Source: Rhodobacteraceae bacterium HLUCCA12
GTDB taxonomy: Bacteria > Pseudomonadota > Alphaproteobacteria > Rhodobacterales > Rhodobacteraceae
DNA: 64,000 nt
Assembly (NCBI GenBank): GCA_001314715.1
Contig: LJSV01000006.1
Span: forward strand, 62,001-126,000
Direction of reading: 5' to 3'
The notes beneath the pieces were generated by a model. It searched no databases, had not been told where the DNA came from, and saw only the letters and a list, made by a program, of their open reading frames with translations. Positions 36,725 to 38,899 of this stretch are shown in pieces (within the stretch, counting starts at the first letter, position 1; each line of letters begins with the position of its first letter). The position numbers and the translations under genes are program-made.

Positions 36725-36991
36725 ATGGCCAATACGCCCCAGTCCAAGAAACGCGCCCGCCAGAACGAACGCCGCTTTGAAGTCAACAAGGCCCGCCGTT
36801 CGCGCATCCGCACCTATCTGCGCAAGGTCGAAGAAGCGCTCGCTTCCGGCAATGCCGATTCGGCCAAGGCCGCCCTGCTGGCCGCGCAGCCCGAACTGGA
36901 TCGCGGTGTCACCAAGGGCGTGCTGCACAAGAATACCGCGTCGCGCAAGATGGCCCGCCTGGCCGCCCGCGTGAAGGCGCTGGCCAACTGA
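36725..36991 (+). CDS. rpsT: 30S ribosomal protein S20
   Basis: 88-residue basic protein that binds 16S rRNA early in 30S assembly. It reads [20 protein letters not shown] and ends in the helical [21 protein letters not shown]20 from E. coli is known to repress its own translation; here the leader has a pseudoknot-like pairing pattern just upstream. A strong intrinsic terminator follows 42 bp after the stop. Confidence 0.97.
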
Positions 36992-37033
36992 TCAGCGCCG
37001 ACCGATGCCGGGCCCGCCCGGAACAGGCCTCGA

Positions 37034-37059
37034 CGCGCGCCCGAACGGCGCGCGTTTTT
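37034..37059 (+). terminator. Rho-independent terminator of rpsT
   Basis: Eight-bp stem CGCGCGCC / GGCGCGCG with the 5-nt loop CGAAC and a TTTTT run at 37055-37059. Confidence 0.9.
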
Positions 37060-37091: not shown

Positions 37092-37202
37092 CAAGCGCCT
37101 GTGGCAGGAAGCCCACGGCTCAAGCGATTCTTTTCCCCCGGTTCTGTGTCAAGCGAGTTGTTTGATTGCCTGTCGTCGCAAGCGCTTGCTAGCGTGCGCT
37201 TG
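37092..37202 (+). repeat. CAAGCG array with exact 29-bp period upstream of dnaA
   Basis: CAAGCG occurs at 37092, 37121, 37150 and 37179, each 29 bp after the last. The fourth overlaps an inverted copy (CGCTTG, 37183), making the palindrome GCAAGCGCTTGC, and another inverted copy lies at 37197. Two GATTC (GANTC) sites at 37126 and 37204 directly abut copies. Outside the hexamer the 29-bp units are unlike each other, so this is a site array rather than a decayed tandem repeat. Confidence 0.65.
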
Positions 37203-37516
37203 CGATTCACATTGCCCTGGGGGGCTTTGACGCGAAACATGTGCCATTGGGTGGCGCGGCCGGTGGCTGCGCCGGGGTTGGCCTGTGTTTTCATGCGCGA
37301 CCTGTCATGGCGCGCCGCGTCCGGGTCATGCGGGCCCCCGGTTCTTGTGTGTAGACGTTCGCAGGCATCTTGCCCGTGGCGTTCCGGTTTCTGTTCGGGT
37401 CCGGTCTCGGCCGGACCGCCAGGGTGATGTGACGCGCGCGGACCGGGAATGCCCGGCACGGATCGAAAACAACAAGAGGCCGGCGCGAACGCGCATGGCG
37501 CATGGGTCGGGACAGA
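37203..37516. other. Leader region of dnaA without a recognisable gene
   Basis: This 314-bp stretch together with the array before it separates the rpsT terminator from dnaA. I see no coding frame, no DnaA box TTATCCACA on either strand and no convincing -35/-10 pair. Presumably it contains the dnaA promoter and a long leader. Confidence 0.4.
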
Positions 37517-38899
37517 ATGACAAACGCAGCGTGGAGCGATGTTCGCACGGTTTTGCGGGGCCTTGTTGGCGAGAACAATTACATAACCTGGATCGAACCG
37601 CTGCGTCTGTCCGGGCTCGGCGACGGGGTCGCACGCCTGGTCGCGCCGACCAATTTCGTTGCCAACTGGGTCAATCGCAACTTCGCCGAACAAATCCGCC
37701 GCGCCCTGATTGCCAATGGCCAGGTGGTTCATCGTGTCGAGATCCTGGTCGACGATCAGGCCGCGCGCCCCCGCGCCGCGGTCCAGCGCGCCATCACCGC
37801 GCCCGCGACCCCGGCCGTGGCGCCGACGAGTGCCGCGCGCGGCGACGATGACAGTGACCTGCCCACCGCCGCGCTCGACCATCGGTTCACCTTCGACAAT
37901 TTCGTCGTCGGAAAGCCCAACGCCCTGGCCCATGCCGCCGCCCGCCGCGTCGCCGAGGGCGGGCCGGTCACCTTCAACCCATTGTTTCTTTACGGCGGCG
38001 TCGGGCTCGGCAAGACCCACTTGATGCATGCGATTGGCTGGGAATTGCAGTCGCGCCAGCCCGACCTGCGGGTGCTGTATCTGTCGGCCGAGCAGTTCAT
38101 GTATCGCTTCGTCCAGGCGCTGCGCGACCGCCAGATCATGGATTTCAAGGGCCTGTTCCGCTCGGTCGATGTGCTGATGGTCGATGACGTGCAGTTCATC
38201 GCCGGCAAGGAAAGCACACAGGAAGAGTTCTTTCACACCTTCAACGCGCTGGTCGATCAGAACAAGCAGATCGTGATTTCCGCCGATCGCGCCCCCGGCG
38301 AGATCAAGGATCTGGAAGACCGGATCAAGAGCCGCCTGCAATGCGGCCTGGTGGTGGATCTTCACCCCACCGATTACGAGTTGCGCCTGGGCATTCTGCA
38401 ACAGAAGATCGAGCAGAACCAGACCACCTATGGCACGGTCGTCATCGGCGATGGCGTGCTGGAGTTTCTGGCGCATCGCATCTCCACCAATGTCCGCGTG
38501 CTCGAAGGGGCGCTGACCCGCCTCTTCGCGCTGGCCAGCCTGGTGGGGCGCGAGATCACGCTGGACCTGGCGCAGGATTGCCTGGCCGACATCCTGCGCT
38601 CGTCCGAACGCAAGGTCACGGTCGAGGAAATCCAGCGCAAGGTGGCCGAGCACTACAATATCCGCCTGTCCGACATGATCGGCCCCAAGCGCCTGCGCAC
38701 CATCGCCCGCCCGCGTCAAATCGCCATGTATCTGGCCAAGCAGATGACCACCCGCTCGCTGCCCGAAATCGGGCGCCGGTTCGGCGGGCGCGACCATACC
38801 ACGATCATGCATGGCGTGAAAAAGGTCGAGGAGTTGCGCGCCGCCGACAGGCAACTGGCCGAGGATGTCGACCTGCTCCGCCGGCTCCTGGAAAGCTGA
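37517..38899 (+). CDS. dnaA: Chromosomal replication initiator protein DnaA
   Basis: 460 residues from the ATG at 37517 (MTNAAWSDVR); an ATG five codons earlier is possible. Domain I (about 1-80) binds DnaB and has the conserved NYITWIEPL. A short Pro/Ala-rich domain II is followed by the AAA+ domain with Walker A GGVGLGKTHLMHA (about 160-172) and Walker B VLMVDDVQFI. Domain IV has the DnaA-box-binding helix region with GRDHTTIMHGVKKVE. All initiation motifs are intact. The upstream gap has an unusual site array. Confidence 0.97.
   Translation: MTNAAWSDVRTVLRGLVGENNYITWIEPLRLSGLGDGVARLVAPTNFVANWVNRNFAEQIRRALIANGQVVHRVEILVDDQAARPRAAVQRAITAPATPAVAPTSAARGDDDSDLPTAALDHRFTFDNFVVGKPNALAHAAARRVAEGGPVTFNPLFLYGGVGLGKTHLMHAIGWELQSRQPDLRVLYLSAEQFMYRFVQALRDRQIMDFKGLFRSVDVLMVDDVQFIAGKESTQEEFFHTFNALVDQNKQIVISADRAPGEIKDLEDRIKSRLQCGLVVDLHPTDYELRLGILQQKIEQNQTTYGTVVIGDGVLEFLAHRISTNVRVLEGALTRLFALASLVGREITLDLAQDCLADILRSSERKVTVEEIQRKVAEHYNIRLSDMIGPKRLRTIARPRQIAMYLAKQMTTRSLPEIGRRFGGRDHTTIMHGVKKVEELRAADRQLAEDVDLLRRLLES

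Follow-up and report, generated by a model that had tools for sequence, protein, structure and literature searches.

The rpsT-dnaA gap in the window (the whole 64,000-nt stretch analysed, from Rhodobacteraceae bacterium HLUCCA12, contig LJSV01000006.1) carries six copies of the hexamer CAAGCG within 111 bp, four of them in exact 29-bp register. The locus raises the question of whether these repeats form a protein-binding array upstream of the initiator gene or lie over something else. Comparison with relatives points to the latter: the stretch is probably (probability about 0.72) the main dnaA promoter, dependent on sigma70, tuned by GANTC methylation and equipped with a family-specific upstream element, the CAAGCG register being coincidental. 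The features referred to below are as follows (positions in the window; counts are rows of a 105-row family alignment).

36725–36991, + strand: rpsT (ribosomal protein S20), the upstream neighbour (Pfam Ribosomal_S20p, 1.9e-28)
37032–37056, + strand: intrinsic terminator of rpsT, 10-bp stem and T run (consensus scan; also seen in a 17-row alignment)
37092–37202: the CAAGCG set, with + strand copies at 37092, 37121, 37150 and 37179 (copies 1–4) and − strand copies at 37183 and 37197
37126–37130, unstranded: GANTC site 1 (GATTC), ~75–76 bp 5′ of the predicted start; GANTC in 104/105, GATTC in 103
37148–37165, + strand: upstream element with invariant GTCAA (37148–37152; 105/105), abutting the putative −35
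37166–37171, + strand: putative −35, TTGCCT here; TTG (37166–37168) in 105/105
37188–37195, + strand: putative −10, GCTAGCGT here; commonest form GCTAGCTT (29/105), with an invariant A
37201–37203, + strand: predicted transcription start, 6–8 bp 3′ of the −10 and placed from its position
37204–37208, unstranded: GANTC site 2, at ~+1 to +7; GANTC in 102/105 (GATTC 91, GACTC 7, GAGTC 4)
37212–37224, + strand: leader start, conserved and TCGTCCTGGGGGG-like (family alignment)
37517–38899, + strand: dnaA (Pfam Bac_DnaA, 7.5e-70; DnaA_N; Bac_DnaA_C)

All six hexamer positions reported in an earlier note on this DNA were recovered, with the four direct copies exactly 29 bp apart, and the sequence between copies shows no similarity from unit to unit, as that note had described. 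Its statement that the copies exceed what base composition predicts also holds for the rpsT-dnaA gap (510 bp), where six copies compare with a shuffle mean of 0.67 and at least six were reached in 1 of 5000 shuffles; across the window the hexamer is not enriched (73 found, 67.4 expected). An exact four-copy register of any hexamer, at spacings of 10–60 bp, was found in 0/100 shuffles of the window and 0/5000 shuffles of the gap, and nowhere in 902 kb of relatives' DNA except in one run of N. Registers of three copies are frequent (39 in the 902 kb; 13/105 dnaA-upstream regions; 83/5000 gap shuffles). Counted over the whole 3.73-Mb genome, CAAGCG-N23-CAAGCG has four occurrences, three of them at the array (two for the reversed control pattern), leaving a single pair outside it. 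The 29-bp register is real, rare and a priori unlikely, although the hexamer and its spacing were chosen post hoc. A second four-copy register is present in the window, within the dnaA coding region (CCGCGC, four copies at 36-bp spacing, 37761–37874), and probably results from the alanine/proline-rich linker encoded there.

Conservation was read from two alignments, one of 17 rows covering the gap (16 of the genus and one from another genus) and one of 105 rows covering dnaA-upstream regions (18 from the same genus and 87 from other genera of the family, in which 285 genomes gave a DnaA match). Other-genus rows were taken in order of DnaA match quality, best first, as 28 loci and 60 more; 14 places in this order were skipped, four with dnaA at the contig start and ten with no recorded reason, and one region (L097) was left out of the alignment because its DnaA match was not found, its module being detected later by HMM. 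The near relatives belong to the genus Pararhodobacter, and the closest among the matches listed is a MAG with a DnaA 89% identical and a gap 71% identical to those of the source genome. Copies 1, 2 and 4 and the − strand copy at 37197 each occur in exact form in 1/105 regions, that of the source genome itself; exact forms of copy 3 are found in 39/105 and of the − strand copy at 37183 in 11/105. A + strand CAAGCG pair at 29 bp is absent from all other aligned dnaA-upstream regions (1/105 being the source genome). Relatives without the hexamers or the register are what the earlier note had itself named as speaking against a protein array of 29-bp CAAGCG units, and CAAGCG as a conserved binding unit was rejected, the register having no counterpart in any relative among the 105 regions. 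Evenly spaced short repeats adjoining an initiator gene are reminiscent of iterons and other direct-repeat arrays at replication loci, but repeat unit and spacing are not kept here (29-bp pair in 1/105), and the repeat register is absent from every relative examined.

What the relatives do share is a set of sites on which several of the hexamers lie. Comparison of the family regions examined shows GANTC, GTCAA, TTG, a −10-like element and a second GANTC conserved in one rigid module, with 14 invariant positions in the 105-row alignment and both GANTC sites present together in 101/105. Measured start to start, GTCAA follows GANTC site 1 by 22–23 bp in 90/105 rows, TTG follows GTCAA by 18 bp in 102/105, the TA of the −10 follows TTG by 24 bp in 104/105, and GANTC site 2 follows this TA by 14 bp in 86/105 and by 15 bp in 16/105. 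GTCAA is often succeeded by GAAGTTC (31/105) or GTTGTTC (10/105), and GANTC site 2 mostly stands in the context GCGATTCAC (75/105 rows).

This conserved module of ~100 bp is touched by four of the six hexamers. Copy 2 reads CAAGCGATTC, its last G being the G of GANTC site 1; copy 3 overlaps the invariant GTCAA, with CAA in common; the right half of the palindrome GCAAGCGCTTGC is the CTTGC preceding the −10 and thereby lies on the extended −10; and the − strand copy at 37197, reading CGCTTGCGATTC, abuts GANTC site 2. Copies 1 and 4 have almost no contact with conserved positions. Since CAAGCG copies sit on conserved elements, the register needs no cause besides chance acting on predisposed sites, chance itself being unproven; the CAAGCG words and their register are probably a lineage-private coincidence over conserved elements, and, given how rare the register is, a genuine species-specific role retains some probability. 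The role in initiator synthesis suggested by the earlier note is retained for the same ~100 bp, as a strongly conserved family dnaA promoter module, and unsupported for the CAAGCG array. The accompanying remark that the hexamer alone does not match the GcrA/CcrM motif overlooked that copy 2 and the 37197 copy touch conserved GANTC sites. The case also illustrates how conspicuous spacing in a single genome may arise by accident on top of genuinely conserved elements.

The module extends through the family. A first HMM was built on the 17-row alignment (the 16 genus regions and the one other being its training set), and the weakest of its 105 matches had an E value of 0.0012. In total the module was found by HMM in 108/108 family regions tested, comprising the 105 aligned, the one dropped and two members of a class-level sample. 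This sample covered 60 of 141 rpsT places, mainly the best rpsT matches, and the two family members in it both matched; none of the 58 non-family alphaproteobacterial rpsT-downstream regions did so at E 0.01 (best 0.077), with DnaA found in the stretch examined in 34/58.

The upstream element was also searched on its own. The strict pattern GTCAASNNNNWWGTTYNRTTG occurs once each in 44/120 family genomes (reversed control, 0) and is absent from the other 76/120, the pattern being narrower than the conservation in the alignment. Thirty of these 44 loci were examined, and 28 lie at dnaA (26 with DnaA, two at contig ends that show rpsT and the module). The remaining two, L302 and L310, have the exact pattern away from dnaA, probably by chance. 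In the source genome the pattern is matched with 0 mismatches at the dnaA site only, and the −10/GATTC pattern has one exact match, at dnaA, and three at one mismatch (control, 1). The GTCAA element thus appears close to dnaA-specific, with no sign of being a regulon motif. A wider GTCAA-element regulon was considered for the source genome and rejected, 11 matches at ≤2 mismatches comparing with 15 for the reversed control.

TTG and GCTAGCTT, at the distance observed, would be read as −35 and −10, and we infer from the latter a start ~315 nt 5′ of the dnaA ATG (37517, from the 17-row alignment). A sigma70 consensus scan called no promoter at the dnaA module, probably owing to the divergence of the −10 from TATAAT, and Rfam gave nothing above its gathering score (a single weak match, E 0.3). 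Replication genes of Caulobacter have an RRF motif, a 13-mer located between −10 and −35 according to the accessible parts of PMC1175088. The present module resembles it in being tied to the promoter of a replication gene but, compared by description, differs in that its spacer (37170–37184) is poorly conserved (≤0.68 bits per column) and the conserved elements flank the spacer.

Two features of a CcrM-regulated dnaA promoter are present, namely GANTC at fixed promoter places and a CcrM gene (a 369-aa ORF with a RAMA domain; best PDB match CcrM 6pbd, 4.8e-164). GANTC occurs at only ~1.35 per kb in the 902 kb of relatives' DNA, so the two fixed sites are not background. At site 2 the N differs in 11/102 rows with GANTC kept, as expected for recognition by CcrM, and at site 1 the N is T in 103/104, a near-constancy suggesting that more than methylation alone is needed there. 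GANTC counts 5′ of genes do not by themselves prove control, and in Caulobacter CcrM activates the dnaA promoter through methylation, as stated in the parts of PMC2877005 available to us. For Caulobacter dnaA, the accessible text of PMC3973325 and PMC3708114 describes a small but significant shift of transcription with GANTC methylation state, and that of PMC3708114 adds that the methylation sites are non-essential and that dnaA had no known methylation-dependent regulator.

These elements can be assembled into a working model. Sigma70 RNA polymerase would start near 37202, and both GANTC sites would be methylated by CcrM and become hemimethylated on passage of the replication fork. Hemimethylation may then affect transcription from the dnaA promoter in the way reported for Caulobacter, such that initiator synthesis would drop after the locus is copied and return once CcrM has acted, the two GANTC marks in effect reporting the replication status of the locus. 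The GTCAA element 5′ of the −35 is a candidate factor site or RNA polymerase contact, presumably used chiefly at dnaA. A more specific version is put forward tentatively, as conceivable rather than probable: a dnaA-dedicated switch of the Rhodobacteraceae, in which a factor acting at the one-per-genome GTCAA element, together with GANTC at ~−75 and at the start, would let replication of the locus directly reset the production of DnaA independently of the Caulobacter GcrA motif.

A mechanism identical to that of Caulobacter, in which GcrA activates dnaA by way of methylated GANTC, would account for part of the same evidence, given that GcrA (match 3.9e-46) is encoded in the genome together with CcrM and that GANTC lies near the predicted start in 102/105 rows. 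GcrA-CcrM activated promoters likewise have GANTC near the promoter core with both regulators encoded. The extended form of the GcrA activation motif, given as YGAKTCG in the accessible portion of PMC7987155, is however almost missing, being found on the + strand in 2/105 rows at site 1 and 1/105 at site 2, and on the reverse strand in 0/105 and 7/105, respectively; Caulobacter-style GcrA activation as such is therefore unsupported, and we consider it unlikely. The invariant TTGAC that GTCAA forms on the minus strand (37152–37148) could instead be the −35 of a divergent transcript running toward rpsT, with GAATC as its −10 at a spacing of ~16–18 bp (37124–37152). This spacing varies by a few bp, as is usual for promoter spacers. 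Against it, GAATCG is unlike a −10 in lacking T at position 6, and GTCAA keeps a fixed 18-bp distance to the forward TTG (102/105); a divergent promoter is quite improbable.

The repeats themselves could serve a protein that binds the 29-bp-spaced CAAGCG units and controls dnaA in the source lineage only, and four copies in exact register among six in 111 bp, rarer than shuffles predict and with no four-copy register of any hexamer in the relatives' 902 kb (the run of N aside), would fit such an array. Against it, the hexamer is unenriched in the window, the genome has one pair at 29 bp outside the array, the + strand 29-bp pair is found in no other of the 105 regions, and copies 1, 2 and 4 and that at 37197 are exact only here. 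A length of 29 bp corresponds to ~2.8 helical turns, so the CAAGCG sites would not share one face of the DNA, and we regard a species-specific array as very improbable. An origin of replication, the other activity suggested in the earlier note, was sought in the gap as well. Adjacency to dnaA, the GANTC sites and a conserved element present once per genome where it occurs would suit a portion of oriC inside the gap, and by GC skew, sampled at 20 points in one single-contig relative, the origin falls approximately in the chromosomal part with rpsT and dnaA; the sampling is too coarse to place it, the skew changing between the 210–230 and 420–440 kb samples with rpsT at the contig's far end. The E. 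coli-type DnaA box TTATCCACA was not found in the source-genome gap at ≤2 mismatches, on which ground oriC in the gap was rejected, and the spacing of the module is promoter-like; an origin here is thus highly improbable.

Read as the main dnaA promoter, the stretch has both familiar and apparently new parts. Like the Caulobacter crescentus dnaA promoter, in which methylation state affects transcription (accessible parts of PMC3973325 and PMC3708114), it carries GANTC, and dnaA promoters with GANTC are already known in kind; the apparently new part is the family-wide module with its GTCAA element. Compared by description with C. crescentus, the combination of GTCAA, 18 bp and TTG with two fixed GANTC sites was found in the Rhodobacteraceae only (0/58 rpsT-downstream regions from outside the family). 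No description of a family-wide GTCAA module turned up in searches of open-licence PubMed Central papers, nor is the module described in those parts of PMC2877005, PMC3973325, PMC4287350, PMC1175088, PMC6699656, PMC3708114 and PMC7987155 that were accessible. A module of such constancy, probably methylated at the transcription start and bearing an element found almost only at dnaA, offers a concrete target in the search for the factor controlling dnaA in this large family. To our knowledge, the timing of DnaA synthesis in alphaproteobacteria other than Caulobacter is poorly known.

Two further segments flank the module. The leader start (37212–37224) is G-rich and TCGTCCTGGGGGGACAT-like across the family, with an ATG right after the G run in 47/105 rows. 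Upstream, the segment at 37099–37116 is TGTGGCAnGAAnCCCAC-like and, in the 17-row alignment, mostly retained among rows of the genus, a conservation that is not family-wide; it is possibly an extra site 5′ of the dnaA module at the level of the genus.
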